A program made the position numbers and the translations under genes. The notes below the pieces were generated by a model, which worked only from the letters and a program-made list of their open reading frames with translations, made no database searches and was not told where the DNA came from. This document shows positions 23,434 through 33,210 of a DNA stretch of 35,360 nt, one piece after another (the first letter of the stretch is position 1; each line of letters begins with the position of its first letter). The DNA comes from Candidatus Woesearchaeota archaeon (GTDB lineage Archaea > Nanobdellota > Nanobdellia > Woesearchaeales > ARS49), in contig WJKI01000057.1 in NCBI GenBank assembly GCA_014729195.1, positions 1 through 35,360 of the forward strand, in the 5' to 3' direction.

Positions 23434-25410
23434 ATGACCAAAAAGAAATTTTACATAACCACAGCAATATTTTATCCTAATGCAAAACCGCATGTAGGAC
23501 ACTTGTACGAACAAGTAGTAGCTGATGCTATTGCGCGATGGCACAGACTAAAAGGAGAAGACGTATTCTTTCTTACAGGAACAGACGAGCACGGCCAGAA
23601 AATATACAAGACAGCAATAGAGCAAGGAAAAAAACCAAAAGTATTCGTAGACGAAATGCTCCCATTTTTCAAGGAACTCTGCACAAAACTAAATATCTCC
23701 CACACCCGTTTTATCAGGACAACAGAAGAAGGACATATCAAAACATGCCAGGAAATATTCAAAAAACTGGAAAAGTCAGGAGACATATATAAGGGAAGCT
23801 ATGAAGGACTTTATTGTTACGGATGTGAGGCATACTACACTGAAAAGGAACTGATAGAAGGTTTATGCCCGGTGCATAAAAGAAAACCAGAAGCATTCAA
23901 AGAGGAAACATATTTCTTTAAAATGTCAAGATATCAAACAAAATTAATAGACCACATCAAAAAAAATCCAGAATTCATACAACCAGAGTCTAAAAGAAAT
24001 GAAATATTAAACAGATTAAAAGAACCCTTAAGGGACTTATGCATTTCCAGACCATCAAAATCACTTCCGTGGGGAGTTCCTGTTCCCGGAGATCCAGATC
24101 AGATATTATATGTTTGGCTGGATGCGTTACTGAATTATATTTCCGGTATAGACTACCCCTCTGAAACATTCAAAAAATACTGGCCAGCAGATGTGCACAT
24201 AATCGGCAAAGACATAAATTGGTTTCATACAGTAATATGGCCCTGCGAGCTAATGTCTGCAGGAATAGAACTGCCAAAAACAGTGCAAATCCACGGATTT
24301 GTAAATCTCGGAGGAGAAAAATTATCCAAGTCAAGAGGAATAACTGTTGACCCAATAAAATTAGTAGAAGAATACGGAGTTGACCAAGTAAGATATTTCT
24401 TTATCAAAGAAATACCTGCAGGAGAAGACGGAAATTTCTCGTACGAAGCATTAACAGAAAGAACAAACTCTGACTTGGCAGACGACCTTGGAAATTTATT
24501 ACAACGAACAATGGTTTTGATTCACAAAAACTTTGCAGGAAAAATACCCTCCCCCTCAGAACTCACATCTACAGAAGAAGAACTAATAAAAGAATCAGAC
24601 ATTTTCAAAGAAACAGATTCACTAATGCAAAAATACGAATGGCACAGGGCAATAAACAAAATATGGGGATTTATACGAATGTGCAACAAATACATCAATG
24701 AAACAGAACCATGGAGATGCAAGGATGACAAAAAAAGATTAGCAACAATACTATACACACTTGCAGAAAGCCTGAGAATCATCTCAATTTATATACGGCC
24801 GTTTATTCCAGCAACTGCAGAAAAAATAACAGAGCAAATAGGACAAAATAAAGAGGACTTTTCAAGCATAAAATTCAGAAAAACAACCAAAGGAACACTT
24901 GAAAAACCGGAAATATTATTCAAAAAAACAGAAATAAAATCAGAAGATCCCTTTTCACATTTAAGCCTGAGAGTTGCAGAAATTAAAGAAGTAAAAGAAC
25001 ACCCATCAGCAGACAAATTGTTGATACTCCAAATTGATTTAGGAAAAGAAAAAAGACAAATAGTTGCAGGACTAAAACCATACTTTGACAAAGATGAACT
25101 AACAGGGAAACATATTGTTGTGGTAACTAATCTTAAACCAACCAAACTAAAAGGCGAAGAAAGCAATGGAATGCTATTAGCTGCAGAACACAAAGACAAA
25201 GTAGTATTATTAGAAGCGCCCTGCTCAGAACCAGGAGACCTGGTAAAAGTAGAAGGGATAGAACCAGAAGGAAAACAAATAACAATCAAGAACTTTACAA
25301 AAATCAAAATCACAACCAAAGACGGAAGAGCAGTCTACAAAGACAAGCCATTAAAAACCAAAAAAGAAGAAATAGAAGCAAACATAAAAGATGGAGCACA
25401 AATATCTTAG
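23434..25410 (+). CDS. metG: Methionine-tRNA ligase with C-terminal tRNA-binding domain
   Basis: This enzyme charges initiator and elongator tRNA-Met with methionine in the cytoplasm. The 658 residues carry PHVGHLYE (HIGH motif, residues 19-26), a zinc knuckle CYGCE near 128 with CPVH near 145, the WLDALLNYI segment near 229, KLSKS (KMSKS motif) near 296, the helical anticodon-binding domain at about 360-480, and an EMAP/Trbp111-type OB domain at about 507-620 (LRVAEIKEVKEHPSADKL). The single CxxC knuckle, short connective region and fused tail look like the bacterial Bacillus/Thermus type rather than the usual archaeal two-knuckle type, suggesting transfer. A TATA-like CATTTAAATAC precedes the ATG. 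Confidence 0.95.
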   Translation: MTKKKFYITTAIFYPNAKPHVGHLYEQVVADAIARWHRLKGEDVFFLTGTDEHGQKIYKTAIEQGKKPKVFVDEMLPFFKELCTKLNISHTRFIRTTEEGHIKTCQEIFKKLEKSGDIYKGSYEGLYCYGCEAYYTEKELIEGLCPVHKRKPEAFKEETYFFKMSRYQTKLIDHIKKNPEFIQPESKRNEILNRLKEPLRDLCISRPSKSLPWGVPVPGDPDQILYVWLDALLNYISGIDYPSETFKKYWPADVHIIGKDINWFHTVIWPCELMSAGIELPKTVQIHGFVNLGGEKLSKSRGITVDPIKLVEEYGVDQVRYFFIKEIPAGEDGNFSYEALTERTNSDLADDLGNLLQRTMVLIHKNFAGKIPSPSELTSTEEELIKESDIFKETDSLMQKYEWHRAINKIWGFIRMCNKYINETEPWRCKDDKKRLATILYTLAESLRIISIYIRPFIPATAEKITEQIGQNKEDFSSIKFRKTTKGTLEKPEILFKKTEIKSEDPFSHLSLRVAEIKEVKEHPSADKLLILQIDLGKEKRQIVAGLKPYFDKDELTGKHIVVVTNLKPTKLKGEESNGMLLAAEHKDKVVLLEAPCSEPGDLVKVEGIEPEGKQITIKNFTKIKITTKDGRAVYKDKPLKTKKEEIEANIKDGAQIS

Positions 25411-25981
25411 ACTTCTCGGAATTGTTCTTGTTGTTGTTTCTGTTTACTTGTTAAGTTTTTCAATGGTTGTGTTTCATTATCCTATTTATGAGAAATTTAT
25501 TTTACAATACAGCGCAGACAAGACAACAGCAGAACTGCAAACAAAAAACATTATTTCATATTTTCAAGGCAAAGAAGAACTTCGCGGATTTACAAAACCT
25601 GAAGCAGACCATCTGAAAGATGCAAGATTTGTGATATGGCTTTTGATTCTTGTCTTAATATTTTCAATAATTGGTTTGTTCCTGATTAAAGATCAAAAAG
25701 CAATGGTTTACGGAGGATTGCTTAGTTTAATCATTCCCTTGATTTTGTATGCAATTCCATTTGAGCTGTTGTTTAACTATTTTCATTTTATTTTTTTCCC
25801 GCAGGGAAACTGGATGTTTGATACAAATTCTGTTTTGATACAAATGTATCCGATAGATTTTTTTTATGGTTTTTTCAAAGACATAATTTTAAGAGGATTT
25901 ATCTTTGGGATAGTGATAACAATAGTTTTTTCAATGAAGTTTCTAAAACACAAAATATATTTTACACTACAACAAAATTAA
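25391..25981 (+). CDS. DUF1461-like integral membrane protein
   Basis: The 196-residue protein has about four membrane helices: residues 8-28, 78-98, 106-126 and 165-185. The family-like loop FNYFHFIFFPQGNWMFD, then MYPIDFFYGFF, matches the DUF1461/TIGR01906 signature of conserved integral membrane proteins with no known role. Its ATG overlaps the last 20 bp of metG, so it is probably co-transcribed with it. The third codon positions turn from A-rich to T-rich across the junction. Confidence 0.78.
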   Translation: MEHKYLRLLGIVLVVVSVYLLSFSMVVFHYPIYEKFILQYSADKTTAELQTKNIISYFQGKEELRGFTKPEADHLKDARFVIWLLILVLIFSIIGLFLIKDQKAMVYGGLLSLIIPLILYAIPFELLFNYFHFIFFPQGNWMFDTNSVLIQMYPIDFFYGFFKDIILRGFIFGIVITIVFSMKFLKHKIYFTLQQN

Positions 25982-26032: not shown

Positions 26033-27292
26033 ATGGATACGAGAGTCAGAAAAATAATATTGGCAAGTTTAACAGTTCTAATAGTACTAATGCTAACAGG
26101 ATGTGCATTAAAGGATTTTAAAATCAAAAGAAAAGCACAGGTAACAGACACAGAAATGGACGACATAGACAAGGCACTGGAAGAAATAGAAAAAGTATCA
26201 GAACTGATAGAACAGGAAGACGCAGACGTGCCAATAGAAGAAATGAAAGACCAAACCCCTTCTGAAGATGAAGAAATAGATGAAAGCGGACTCCCAATCA
26301 AAAAGGTAAAAGAAGGAGAACTAATAAGCTTTCCAAACCTTAAAGCAACAGACCCAGACGGAGACCCAATCACATACACTTTCAGCTCACCATTAAACCA
26401 AAGAGGAATGTGGCAGACAAAAGAAGGAGACGCAGGAAGATACAAAGTAACAATCACTGCATCAGACGGAGTAAATAAAGTATCACAAGACGTAATACTA
26501 ATTGTAAAAGCACTAAACAAACCACCAAAACTAGAACTTGCAGAAAAAGAAATAATAGTCAAAGAAGGAGAAAAAGTAATACTAACAGCAAGAGCCACAG
26601 ATCCCGACGGTGATGAAGTAGAAATCTCATACACAGGATGGATGCTGATGCCCACAAAAGTAACTGACTACAGAGATGCAGGAGAACACACAGTAATAGT
26701 AACAGCATCAGACGGAAAAGAAAAAGTACAGGAAGAAGTCAAAGTAATAGTAGAAAACGTAAACAGAGGGCCAAAAATAGAACCAATAACAGACATAGTA
26801 ATAACAGAAGGAGACAAGATAACAATAGAACCGCGAGCAACAGACCCAGACGGAGACGACCTAAGATTTGAATACTCCAAACCAGTAGATAACATGGGAA
26901 AATGGCAGACACAAGAAGGAGATGCAGGAAAATACAGAATAACAGTCACTGTAACAGACGGAGAAGCCGAGGATCAGACAAGCTTTTACCTTGTTGTTGA
27001 ATCACTAAACAAAGCACCGATAATAACAGTGCCAGCAGACGTAATTTACGTAAACGAAGGAGAAACAGTAAGCATAAACGCAGAAATAACAGACCCAGAA
27101 AACGATGAAATGACAATAACCTACACCGGATGGATGAACTCAGACACATATGTTACCGACTACGAAGACCAAGGAACACACAAAGTAATAATCAAAGCAA
27201 CAGACGGCATAAACACCGCTGAGAAAGAACTAACAGTAGTAGTAAAAGACATAAACAGAGCACCGGTATTTGAAACAGGAGCTTTTGATTAA
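26033..27292 (+). CDS. Lipoprotein with four Ig/cadherin-like repeats in ABAB order
   Basis: The 419-residue product has a lipobox LTGC (Cys24) after a hydrophobic signal, an acidic linker to residue 95, then four beta-sandwich repeats of about 82 residues. Repeats 1 and 3 share ATDPDGD then GxWQTxEGDAG. Repeats 2 and 4 share TDPxxDE, SYTGWM or TYTGWM, and VTDY. Each ends with an (A/V)(S/T)DG motif. The DPDGD motifs look like calcium-binding sites. It is attached outside the membrane and may serve cell-cell contact. GAGGGGGA before the ATG is a strong ribosome-binding site. Confidence 0.85.
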   Translation: MDTRVRKIILASLTVLIVLMLTGCALKDFKIKRKAQVTDTEMDDIDKALEEIEKVSELIEQEDADVPIEEMKDQTPSEDEEIDESGLPIKKVKEGELISFPNLKATDPDGDPITYTFSSPLNQRGMWQTKEGDAGRYKVTITASDGVNKVSQDVILIVKALNKPPKLELAEKEIIVKEGEKVILTARATDPDGDEVEISYTGWMLMPTKVTDYRDAGEHTVIVTASDGKEKVQEEVKVIVENVNRGPKIEPITDIVITEGDKITIEPRATDPDGDDLRFEYSKPVDNMGKWQTQEGDAGKYRITVTVTDGEAEDQTSFYLVVESLNKAPIITVPADVIYVNEGETVSINAEITDPENDEMTITYTGWMNSDTYVTDYEDQGTHKVIIKATDGINTAEKELTVVVKDINRAPVFETGAFD

Positions 27293-27387: not shown

Positions 27388-27978
27388 TCAGAGTTTTGAA
27401 AAATCAGGCAATAAATCATGAGTTCTTAAAACCGAAACAAGAACTTCCAAAGGCAAGGAAAAATCAGCATGATAATATCCTTTTACAGTAAGACCAAATG
27501 TTCCTGCAAATTTACCCCTAGGATTTAACGCACCAGCATTACTAAACGGCTCTCCAGAAGCAATATAATTATCAACATCTACCTCTCTAAAACCACTAAA
27601 AATATAATTGGCGTGAAATGTCCGGGCAAACGATTCCTCAGGAGAAATAACACAAACGCCGGTATATTGATTATCAGGATATTTTTCAAGCATCATAATC
27701 ATTTCTTTAGCTTCTTCTTTTGTCCTGGGCTTGCCAAGAATTTTTCCATTACGAACACTAACAGTATCACAACCAACAACAATATAATCCCCTGATAAAT
27801 CAGCAGCAACGGTCTCAGCCTTTGTCTTTGCAAGAATTTCAACCAAGTCCAAAGGATCACTATGCTGCTCTATTATTTTGGCTTCATCGATATCTGCAGG
27901 AGCAATAATAAAAGGAATACCCAGTTCCCTTAATAACTCCGCTCTTGCAGAAGACCTAGAAGCAAGATATAATCTCAT
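27388..27978 (-). CDS. maf: Maf-family nucleoside-triphosphate pyrophosphatase
   Basis: Maf proteins hydrolyse non-canonical or modified NTPs to NMP and PPi. The 196 residues match the family length. The phosphate-binding start is LYLASRSSARAELLRELGI (residues 3-21). GCDTVSV follows with the catalytic Asp71, then LGKPRTKEEA with Lys83, YTGVCVISPE near 105, and SNAGALNPRGKFAG near 145. It is cytoplasmic. A divergent paralogue lies 66 bp upstream on the same strand, and each gene appears to have its own TATA-like sequence. Substrate preference (dTTP/UTP versus m7GTP) cannot be read. Confidence 0.9.
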   Translation of the reverse strand: MRLYLASRSSARAELLRELGIPFIIAPADIDEAKIIEQHSDPLDLVEILAKTKAETVAADLSGDYIVVGCDTVSVRNGKILGKPRTKEEAKEMIMMLEKYPDNQYTGVCVISPEESFARTFHANYIFSGFREVDVDNYIASGEPFSNAGALNPRGKFAGTFGLTVKGYYHADFSLPLEVLVSVLRTHDLLPDFSKL

Positions 27979-28044
27979 ATTCAGAATAAATAAAGAAGTG
28001 TTTAAATGCTTTTATTAAGTGCAGAATATATTTCCTGAATAAAA

Positions 28045-28644
28045 CTAATGAGAAGAAAAATCACTAAACTCATAACCCCTTAAAATCTTCTCCAACTTAT
28101 CCCAGCATAGGTGATGAGTCAACACAGGATTGCGTATTCTTTTATCAAAATAATACCTGCAGGTAAATTTTACTATCGGCTCCAGACCGACAAATTCCGT
28201 TTTATCAGTTAAAAAATCTTTTATCTCCTTAATAGAACATTTGAACTGGCTTTCTGCACGGGTATACCCCGCAGTTTCTTTTCCAGTTTCAGAATCAACC
28301 ACATAGACAGCAGCATAAACACCAAAAGGATTCATGGCACAGCGCATCAATACTGATTTCATTTCTTTATTATCCCCGGGAGGCATGATAATTATTTCAG
28401 GACCCACTGCTTTTTTTTCAGCCAAAACACAACCGCAACCAACTATCAGTGCATCTCGCAACCTATCTGGCGCACTTAAGCAAGCGATTTCTGCATTTGC
28501 CTTTGCCTGCGTTAACGCAGTCTTAACAGCATTACCCTCAACAGCACTAACATCAAAACCAGGAATCCACTGATGAGGAATATCCCTTTTCTTCAAAAAC
28601 CTTGACGGAAATTCTTCATTTGCAATCACATATAATTCAGTCAT
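28045..28644 (-). CDS. Degenerate Maf paralogue lacking catalytic residues
   Basis: I take the ATG at 28644 (MTELYVIANE), with a TATA-like AATTTAAAT about 27 nt upstream. The 199-residue protein aligns with the neighbouring Maf without large gaps. DALIVGCGCVL stands opposite DYIVVGCDTVS with the same numbering, so catalytic Asp71 is Gly. The phosphate-binding LASRSSARAELL is replaced by VIANEEFPSRFL, and the LGKP lysine is also lost. GVYAAVYVVDSETGKETAGY matches the YTGVCVI strand. It is probably not a pyrophosphatase but may have a regulatory or subunit role with Maf. Confidence 0.72.
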   Translation of the reverse strand: MTELYVIANEEFPSRFLKKRDIPHQWIPGFDVSAVEGNAVKTALTQAKANAEIACLSAPDRLRDALIVGCGCVLAEKKAVGPEIIIMPPGDNKEMKSVLMRCAMNPFGVYAAVYVVDSETGKETAGYTRAESQFKCSIKEIKDFLTDKTEFVGLEPIVKFTCRYYFDKRIRNPVLTHHLCWDKLEKILRGYEFSDFSSH

Positions 28645-28760
28645 GCAGTATATTCTCAACAAGGCATTTAAATTAATTTATCGTCTCTAAAATATATTTC
28701 ATAATAAACTGTATACTCTATCACAATAGACTTTAATAAATCTCTTGTTTTAATCTGATT

Positions 28761-30818
28761 ATGCTCCTGAAATCTCTTTATCTGGAAAACATACGAAGCT
28801 ACACTTCACAAAAAATAGAATTTCCCTCTGGAATTGTTTTATTATCCGGAGATATTGGCTCTGGAAAATCAACAATCCTGCTGGCCATTGAATTTGCACT
28901 GTTCGGAATACTGCCCGGAGAATTATCAGGAGGAACATTGCTGAGAAACGGAGAAGACAAAGGAACAGTAGAAATAATCTTTGAACTCAACAACCAAAAA
29001 ATAAAAATTCAAAGAACCCTGAAAAAAACCAAAACATCTGTGACACAAGGAAACGGCCACATCATAAAACAAGGAATAAAAAAAGACATGACGCCGGTAG
29101 AACTAAAAACCGCAGTGTTTGACTTGCTCGGATATCCCAAAGAAATGCTCACAAAAAGCAAAAATATCTACCGATTTACAGTCTATACTCCGCAGGAAGA
29201 CATGAAGCGGATTTTAATGGAAAAAAAAGAAGACAGACTTGATGTTCTCAGAAAACTATTCGACATAGACAAATACAAAAGAATTCAGGACAATACTTCA
29301 TTATATGTCAGGCAGATAAAAGAAAACCAAAAAGAAAAAGCAGGAATAACATCAGATCTGGAGGAAAAGAAAAAAAACAGAGATGCAAGGCAAAAAGAAT
29401 TTATACTCGCAGAAAAGAAATTACACGAATTAAAACCAAAAGTAGACGCGGCAAAAATAAAAGTGCAGCACAAACAAAAAATAATAACCGAAATTGAAAA
29501 AAGACAAAAAACATTAACTGAACTAAAACAAAAAATTGCAGTAATAGAGTCTGAAATAACCAGTAAAAAAGAACAGCACAAGACCAATCTCTCACAGGCA
29601 AAAGAACTCGAAAAGGAAACAACAAAATTAAGAGAAGAACTTTCGGGAACTGAAATAAAAAAATCTTTTATCGAAGAAATCGACTCATTAAACAAAAAAA
29701 TACAAAAAATATCCAAGGAAACACAAGCAATCCTTGAAAAGAAAACAATCCGCGAAACAGACAAAAAAAGAAGCGAAGAACTGAAGAAAAAAATAGCTGA
29801 ACTTAACAATTGCCCCACTTGCCTGCAAATCGTCGACAAAAACCACAAAGAACAAATTGCCTTTAAAGAAGACGAAAAAATACAGGAATTAATTTTACAT
29901 ATTGACAAACATTTAAAAGAAATATCTGAAAAAGAAACAATCAAAAAAGAACTGGAAAATAAAATAGAAGAACTGCGCAAAAAAGAGAAACAAACAGCAG
30001 AACTGCGAATAAAACAAAATACCCTTGAAAACAAAGAAAAACAGATTGATAATATCACGCAAACGCAGGAAAAACTTCTCAAAACAATAGACGCTGCTGA
30101 AACAGAAAAGGAGAAAATACAAACAGAAACAAAAAAATACAAAGATTTAGAAAAAGAACTGCAGGAGCACAAAAAAGAACTTAATTTCCTGCAGGAAACA
30201 GAGAAAAAAGAAGAAATAGAATTCAACAGGGCGGCAGAAAAAAAAGAAAACATAAAATCAATAATACAAGAACTTGATATGGAAATTAATAAAAAAGAAA
30301 AAATCCACTCTGAACTGATGAAACTAAATGACATAAAAAACTGGCTTTCAGACTATTTTATCAAACTGACAGAAACCATAGAAAAACAAGTAATGCTAAG
30401 AGTTTACCACGAATTCAACGAACTATTCCAGACCTGGTTTGATGCTCTGATAGCAGATGAAACCATTTCCTGCCGGCTAGACGATACATTCACTCCGGTA
30501 ATAATACAAAACGGATATGACGTGGATGTTGTTAATCTTAGCGGAGGAGAAAAAACCGCATGCGCACTTGCTTATAGACTTGCTCTGAATAAGGTAATCA
30601 ATGATTTAATCACAGGAATCAATACCAAGGAATTACTCATACTTGACGAGCCAACAGACGGATTTTCATCTGAACAACTAGACCAGATGAGAGATGTTTT
30701 AGAACAATTGAACATGAAACAAATAATAATAGTAAGCCATGAAACCAAAGTAGAAACATTTGCAGACCAAATAATAAAAGTACAAAAAAATGAACACATA
30801 AGTGAAATCCAGCAATAG
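28761..30818 (+). CDS. rad50: Rad50-type SMC ATPase with zinc hook
   Basis: This DNA double-strand-break repair ATPase normally works with Mre11. The 685 residues contain Walker A GDIGSGKST (residues 30-38), a long coiled coil at about 180-345, the zinc hook CPTC at 351-354, the returning coiled coil at about 360-530, the ABC signature LSGGEK at 593-598, Walker B LLILDEPTDG near 624-633 and the switch His in VSHET near 650. It is shorter than the usual 850-900 residues because the coiled coils are short. No mre11, herA or nurA gene is in the window. Its ATG follows a TATA-like CTTTAATAAA; transcription appears independent. Confidence 0.93.
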   Translation: MLLKSLYLENIRSYTSQKIEFPSGIVLLSGDIGSGKSTILLAIEFALFGILPGELSGGTLLRNGEDKGTVEIIFELNNQKIKIQRTLKKTKTSVTQGNGHIIKQGIKKDMTPVELKTAVFDLLGYPKEMLTKSKNIYRFTVYTPQEDMKRILMEKKEDRLDVLRKLFDIDKYKRIQDNTSLYVRQIKENQKEKAGITSDLEEKKKNRDARQKEFILAEKKLHELKPKVDAAKIKVQHKQKIITEIEKRQKTLTELKQKIAVIESEITSKKEQHKTNLSQAKELEKETTKLREELSGTEIKKSFIEEIDSLNKKIQKISKETQAILEKKTIRETDKKRSEELKKKIAELNNCPTCLQIVDKNHKEQIAFKEDEKIQELILHIDKHLKEISEKETIKKELENKIEELRKKEKQTAELRIKQNTLENKEKQIDNITQTQEKLLKTIDAAETEKEKIQTETKKYKDLEKELQEHKKELNFLQETEKKEEIEFNRAAEKKENIKSIIQELDMEINKKEKIHSELMKLNDIKNWLSDYFIKLTETIEKQVMLRVYHEFNELFQTWFDALIADETISCRLDDTFTPVIIQNGYDVDVVNLSGGEKTACALAYRLALNKVINDLITGINTKELLILDEPTDGFSSEQLDQMRDVLEQLNMKQIIIVSHETKVETFADQIIKVQKNEHISEIQQ

Positions 30819-32370: not shown

Positions 32371-32424
32371 AAACATATCAGACTATAAGCATAAGATGCT
32401 AAGAATGATGATAAGTCAGCTGGA
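32371..32424 (+). other. Intron 1 of tRNA-Tyr (position 37/38)
   Basis: This intron restores the standard loop CTGTAGA when removed. The central helix expected for splicing is imperfect (CTGT against GCTG with one mismatch; GCTG/CAGC is an alternative), so the boundaries are uncertain by one or two bases. Confidence 0.7.
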
Positions 32425-33210
32425 ACCGGAAGGCTGCCGGAGATTTTCATAAACACTGTGAAAATCGGCGAATTCGAGTCCGGCCACAGGGATGTTTTTT
32501 AATATATTAATTCTTTCAGGATACTTAGTGTGCGCAGGACAGAAACCGGTTTTTTGCCAGAGAATCAATTTTGTTAAATGCTTAGGATTTCTAAAACCAA
32601 TACTATCCATCCATTTTTTTAGATTCTCAATACCATTTATATTAATGCAAAAACTAGGGTAATCCGCGGGATTGCCAAAACCAGTTTTCCTAATCCTTCT
32701 TGTGTATGTATAAGAAATGCCCAGCATACTAATTACTTCACAAATGTCTTGTATAAGTTTATTCGAAGCAAATTCTGCTGAAATTACCGGATAATAATTT
32801 ATTTGTTTATGTCTTTTTTTAAAAGTCAAACAGAAATCAGTATCTGCTAATCCTCGCATAAAAGATAATAAGAATTTCTTGTTTTGCTTTATTTTCTTAG
32901 GAATCTGTATTATTCTTGCTTTTTTACCGGCTTTTAATCCATTTTCTTCAAAAAATTCTAAAATAAATTTGAAATTTAAACGCAATCTCAAACAATCTTT
33001 ATTGACTATTAATTTCGGAATAATTCCGAATTGTTCTGAAAATAATTTAATTAGAATTTTGAAAAAATCTGGCTCGTCGATTAAATCTCCAAAAACTTCC
33101 ACTTTATAATCTGTTCGTTTAGAAGAAATATACTTAGTGATACACCCATCACCTGCTACAACTCCGATAAGATAGGCTGTATCTGAATTAAGATCGGGTG
33201 AATAAGACAT
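32416..33210 (-). CDS. LAGLIDADG homing endonuclease, antisense into tRNA-Tyr
   Basis: The 264-residue protein has two LAGLIDADG-type helices: LIGVVAGDG (residues 14-22) with catalytic Asp21, and FMRGLADTDF (117-126) with Asp125; the final Gly of the second is Phe. This is the single-chain two-motif form that cuts DNA at a long site. It starts at 33210 with a TATA-like ATTTATAAATC about 25 nt upstream. Its last 25 or so residues (after INILKN) are encoded antisense to the tRNA exons and the T-arm intron, and its stop codon lies in tRNA intron 1. That tail is probably not part of the fold. Its cut site may be this tRNA locus. Confidence 0.85.
   Translation of the reverse strand: MSYSPDLNSDTAYLIGVVAGDGCITKYISSKRTDYKVEVFGDLIDEPDFFKILIKLFSEQFGIIPKLIVNKDCLRLRLNFKFILEFFEENGLKAGKKARIIQIPKKIKQNKKFLLSFMRGLADTDFCLTFKKRHKQINYYPVISAEFASNKLIQDICEVISMLGISYTYTRRIRKTGFGNPADYPSFCININGIENLKKWMDSIGFRNPKHLTKLILWQKTGFCPAHTKYPERINILKNIPVAGLEFADFHSVYENLRQPSGSS
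32441..32472 (+). other. Intron 2 of tRNA-Tyr (T-arm, position 53/54)
   Basis: The 32-nt insertion is flanked by a bulge-helix-bulge. TGCC (32435-32438) pairs with GGCG (32467-32470, one G-U), with 3-nt bulges GGA and AAT, each cut after its second base. The intron itself forms an 8-bp hairpin GATTTTCA/TGAAAATC. Removal joins GCCGG to TTCGAGT, a normal T-arm. Confidence 0.8.

Follow-up and report, generated by a model that had tools for sequence, protein, structure and literature searches.

The stretch of DNA analysed here (the window; 35,360 nucleotides, contig C44) belongs to an archaeal genome of 0.81 Mb in 60 contigs, 91% complete. Two adjacent genes transcribed from the minus strand, P0001 and P0002, lie 66 bp apart in the slot between a lipoprotein gene and a gene for a Rad50-type ATPase. 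Both reading frames had been noticed in an earlier reading of the sequence alone, and their coordinates were confirmed. The features of the locus are as follows:

26033 to 27292, plus strand: PKD/cadherin-like lipoprotein, left flank
27388 to 27978, minus strand: P0001, Maf nucleotide pyrophosphatase by Pfam, TIGRFAM and a 123-Maf alignment, 196 aa
28001 to 28006, minus strand: archaeal TATA-like box (TTTAAA), 28 nt ahead of the P0001 start
28045 to 28644, minus strand: P0002, remote Maf homologue, 199 aa
28645 to 28760, no strand: divergent intergenic region between P0002 and the Rad50-type gene, 116 bp
28667 to 28672, minus strand: archaeal TATA-like box (TTTAAA), 28 nt ahead of the P0002 ATG
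28761 to 30818, plus strand: Rad50/SbcC-type ATPase, right flank

A gene for a Lit-type lipoprotein intramolecular transacylase (25391-25981, plus strand; PF07314, 53.6 bits) directly precedes that of the archaeal PKD-domain lipoprotein. Besides the Rad50-type ATPase gene, the window holds a TYW3/Taw3 gene and, at 32416-33210 on the minus strand, a gene for a free-standing LAGLIDADG-like protein whose match to PF14528 is just over cut-off. The assignment of the genome to the archaea is based on the TYW3/Taw3 gene, the Rad50-type ATPase and the TATA-like boxes that precede many start codons.

By family match and signature, P0001 is a normal Maf pyrophosphatase with predicted activity. It scores 120.7 bits against PF02545 (cut-off 27) and 118.7 bits against TIGR00172 (cut-off 117.15), and in the 123-Maf alignment it carries the full S-R-E-K-D-K signature defined by Tchigvintsev and co-workers (PMC3899018), represented by Ser9, Arg12, Glu32, Lys53, Asp71 and Lys83. 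It differs from the R-T-Q triplet of the YhdE subfamily, but only at positions outside this signature. The YxIQG base-pocket motif is replaced in several Mafs of the order (those of loci L005, L007 and L008, and P0001), for example by GYDPEGK or ALNPRGK; such proteins probably form a subfamily with another substrate preference.

Recognition of P0002 as a Maf relative required more sensitive comparisons. A hmmscan search of Pfam returned no Maf match up to an E value of 10, and no NCBIfam family was found over cut-off; weak Pfam and PDB matches to Citrate_ly_lig and to antibody-like proteins lie below cut-off and were dismissed as chance. A single BLASTP comparison shows 22% identity between P0002 and P0001 (E 0.04). 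The Smith-Waterman score of the two proteins is 62, against 29.7 +/- 4.7 for shuffled sequences, none of 2,000 of which scored as high. A profile built from 40 archaeal Mafs of this order gives P0002 22.8 bits (5.6 at most for 2,000 shuffled copies), and HHalign assigns its pairing with Maf a probability of 94.1% (7.0% at most for 300 shuffles). Since profile and HHalign scores exceed those of the shuffles, P0002 is a genuine but remote homologue of Maf, at the superfamily level, and the profile tests rule out an unrelated ORF. Among 122 Mafs its best global match is P0001; its best local matches are other Mafs.

Aligned at the same residue numbers, Cys70-Asp71-Thr72 of P0001 faces Cys70-Gly71-Cys72 of P0002, as the sequence-only reading had pointed out. 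The loss of the phosphate-binding start and of the LGKP lysine, noted at the same time, is equally evident (Ser9 to Glu, Arg12 to Pro, Lys83 to Pro), and the alignment adds two further replacements, Glu32 by Val and Lys53 by Asn. All six signature residues are thus replaced, E-P-V-N-G-P standing in place of S-R-E-K-D-K; this, together with the remote homology, supports the proposal that an intact Maf has an inactive paralogue of Maf fold as its neighbour. Among the 123 distinct Mafs of the alignment (archaeal relatives and bacterial loci, with P0002 present twice in the raw counts), 115 have the complete signature and six have a single substitution, which never affects the Asp. Replacing the Asp, or the equivalents of Arg and the two Lys, by alanine inactivates the enzyme in five Mafs, and mutants of the Glu have low activity (PMC3899018). 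Because mutants at these residues are so affected, we strongly infer that P0002 is devoid of catalytic activity. Binding or hydrolysis of nucleoside triphosphates in the manner of Maf would not be expected either, since P0002 has lost the Asp that acts as general base, the Glu that binds the metal and the triphosphate-holding Ser, Arg, Lys and Lys. The suggestion that the paralogue senses nucleotides in this manner is accordingly weakened, because the triphosphate ligands are gone as well.

The corresponding slot was compared in two other genomes of the genus. G001 has there a sole Maf-like gene, P0003 (locus L065, 1448-2116; 222 aa). No intact Maf was found next to it or elsewhere in this MAG, which is 65% complete, so that an active Maf may lie elsewhere in the genome. 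In G002, the lipoprotein and Rad50 flanks are separated by 19 bp with no Maf gene between them. Comparison of the 66 bp preceding P0003 with those preceding P0001 gives a match score of 67.5; over the 44 ORFs of the window, the next values are 45, for P0002, and 35. The intergenic region between P0002 and the Rad50-type gene likewise matches that between P0003 and its Rad50 neighbour (89.5, versus 40.2 +/- 6.7 for shuffles; 0/1,000 as high). These upstream and intergenic matches indicate that the slot is homologous across the congeners, while the proteins encoded in it diverge far faster than the flanks: mutual identity among P0001, P0002 and P0003 is only about 20-27%, compared with 79-80% for the lipoprotein among the three congeners and 74-75% for the first 260 aa of the Rad50-type ATPase. 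Catalytic Asp71 is missing from P0002 and P0003 only among the 123 distinct Mafs. With S-H-I-R-E-S as its signature, P0003 is changed at five of the six positions; its loss of activity is less sure than that of P0002, because the K-to-R and D-to-E changes are conservative. In the tree, P0002 and P0003 sit on branches of 3.9 and 3.6 changes per site. None of four groupings is rejected (p-AU 0.23-0.31), so that P0003 could be the orthologue of P0001 or of P0002, and, as the tree cannot place the two diverged proteins, shared origin and duplication are unproven. An argument for tandem duplication from promoter identity was also abandoned, the similarity between the regions upstream of P0001 and P0002 (37.0) being not above that of other promoters in the window.

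The statement that the paralogue has kept its length and core strands holds for residues 1-149 and fails for the C-terminal part, which scores no better against the Maf profile than shuffled sequences. The N-terminal part gives 19.7 bits for P0002 and 35.5 bits for P0003; the C-terminal part gives -2.8 and -1.2 bits, respectively, both within the range of shuffles, against 25.0 for P0001. A single-sequence AlphaFold model of P0002 was unusable (pLDDT 39). When an alignment of P0001 with 28 bacterial Mafs was supplied, mean pLDDT reached 77.7; in blocks of ten residues it was roughly 72-92 up to residue 150, and it fell below 50 at 150-176. A Foldseek search of the PDB with this second model ranked Maf structures first (E 1.8e-9), HAM1/ITPases second (about 1e-4) and KomBC chains next, the Maf alignment used as input biasing the result toward Maf. 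The structure prediction called for in the sequence-only reading thus placed Maf first, from Maf input, and the match to a different fold that would have refuted that reading did not appear; as the support is partly circular, P0002 is to be regarded as compatible with the Maf fold rather than proven to adopt it. Mafs are dimers, and the published interface lies in the C-terminal region (residues 155-183 in B. subtilis; PMC3899018). This segment falls in the Maf-unlike part of P0002, is similarly lost in P0003 and is kept in P0001. In neither of the inactive proteins has any other part diverged as far.

No relatives of P0002 were found in the 57 nearest genomes, in the family, in 353 genomes of the order (searched with a three-row profile), or in GTDB contigs, IMG/VR viruses and phages. 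Maf itself is patchy, occurring in 47 of the 353 genomes of the order and, at a loose threshold, in 33 of 371 genomes of the phylum (28 over cut-off). Where a genome has two full Mafs, these are on separate contigs. Over the order and phylum searched, a Maf/pseudo-Maf pair was seen in one genome only and the congener locus holds one such gene or none, contradicting the description of the pair as conserved. No disrupted copy of the paralogue, the finding that had been expected to speak against it, was seen among relatives, one congener, G002, being without both genes. Two degraded Mafs were encountered in the course of the survey. At L007:1501-2067 (minus strand; genome G043), a Maf is split into two ORFs by one in-frame TGA with its signature residues kept, and represents a pseudogene or a sequencing error. 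At about 4300-4460 of L066 (genome G041), a short Maf-like remnant covers profile positions 143-186 and contains two stops; an intact Maf lies about 2 kb away.

The reading that best accommodates these data, and to which we would give an even chance, is that P0002 is a fast-evolving, genus-restricted pseudoenzyme derived from Maf, kept as an ORF and probably serving a new, stand-alone and non-catalytic role. Duplication or acquisition at the lipoprotein/Rad50 slot is the probable origin of the gene, and this slot would be a fast-changing, genus-specific Maf site, occupied by two genes in the present genome, by a single, different inactive gene in G001 and by none in G002. With the alpha/beta core of an NTP pyrophosphatase retained over about residues 1-149 and the C-terminal part rebuilt, the protein most likely works alone, in binding or as a scaffold, leaving P0001 to carry on the ordinary house-cleaning of a Maf pyrophosphatase. 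Many start codons in the window are preceded, at about 28-31 nt, by TATA-like boxes. The spacing is alike for P0002, which is therefore predicted to have its own leaderless-type archaeal promoter. Counting against a pseudoenzyme are the lack of a P0002 orthologue in the collections searched, its modest codon score and its unplaced position in the tree.

The lack of conservation and the modest codon score, with the very long branches, the loss of catalytic residues and the absence of the genes from G002, would also be expected if P0002 and P0003 were copies that decay under relaxed constraint, with frames still open by chance. We consider this unlikely. The chance of an open 200-codon frame at the composition of P0002 is about 3e-7, and in neutral simulations starting from P0001 and run to 26% identity or less, none of 400 sequences stayed open even without indels, the mean being 10 stops. 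Full-length ORFs are kept in two species, and the P0002 promoter is intact. The in-frame codon score of P0002 (-0.148) is below that of most window genes and about 3.7 SD above shuffles. That P0002 is still selected as an ORF appears to be the best reading of these figures; a recent or partial relaxation of constraint is possible. Alternatively, P0002 could be a non-catalytic partner of its neighbour, forming a heterodimer with P0001 or tuning its activity or substrate choice, as was proposed when the pair was first noticed. Adjacency on the same strand, with 66 bp between the genes and a TATA box equally distant from each, is consistent with this, as are the dimeric nature of Maf proteins (PMC3899018) and the archaeal precedent of a paralogue serving as a subunit, Pcc1/Pcc2 of KEOPS (PMC9889334). 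However, the pair exists in one genome only and has separate promoters rather than an operon, the eroded P0003 stands alone in a genome (65% complete) with no active Maf in sight, and the segment of P0002 aligned to the published interface no longer resembles Maf. The solitary P0003 and the divergence of the interface segment weaken the proposal, making it unlikely overall and an obligate Maf heterodimer less likely. The same two observations, the interface segment being lost in P0002 and P0003 and not in P0001, count for the independence of P0002; an independent role without catalysis is the one we prefer, with moderate confidence.

It is also conceivable, if very improbable, that P0002 uses its Maf core for a newly gained enzymatic, metal or redox function, perhaps through its cysteines. 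These make up 7 of 199 residues (3.5%, versus 0.85% in 23 window genes) and include Cys72, beside the former catalytic site. Signalling roles are within reach of proteins with this general fold, as illustrated by KomB, which binds dITP as a signal (PMC12948488), and the fold search lists KomBC chains as weak matches. On the other hand, the cysteines form no recognisable motif, only Cys70 is common to P0003, and P0002 has no match to a defence family. A broader conjecture, which we regard as improbable, is that the slot is a hypervariable site where Mafs have repeatedly lost catalysis and become sensors or effectors that evolve fast and are not enzymes, directed for instance at mobile elements, by analogy with KomB.

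P0001 and P0002 make up a real and unusual gene pair of narrow distribution, at present a genus-level curiosity. No description of a catalytically dead Maf was found in the open-access literature searched. Different disabled Mafs at one locus in two congeneric archaea amount to a small natural experiment in the passage from a house-cleaning NTPase to a pseudoenzyme. In the Kongming system, KomB binds the non-canonical nucleotide dITP as an immune signal (PMC12948488); the match of KomBC to P0002 is weak (TM-score about 0.43), and P0002 is without the triphosphate-binding residues of Maf. No KomA or KomC neighbour was recognised among the flanking genes tested. The PADLOC defence models gave no match to P0001 or P0002 and, for P0003, only JetD (14.8 bits, E 0.003). 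Pcc2 of KEOPS resembles P0002 in being a diverged archaeal paralogue, in its case a complex subunit (PMC9889334), but is reported to be widely conserved in Archaea, whereas P0002 occurs in a single genome. HAM1/ITPases (RdgB) have the general fold of the P0002 model and formed the second Foldseek group (E about 1e-4), weaker than Maf (E 1e-9), and P0002 has no HAM1 family match in Pfam. The closest relatives are the Maf/YhdE-YceF pyrophosphatases (PF02545), of which P0001 is a member: P0002 has the N-terminal core in common with them, as judged from profile and predicted fold, and differs in lacking the six S-R-E-K-D-K residues and a recognisable C-terminal third.
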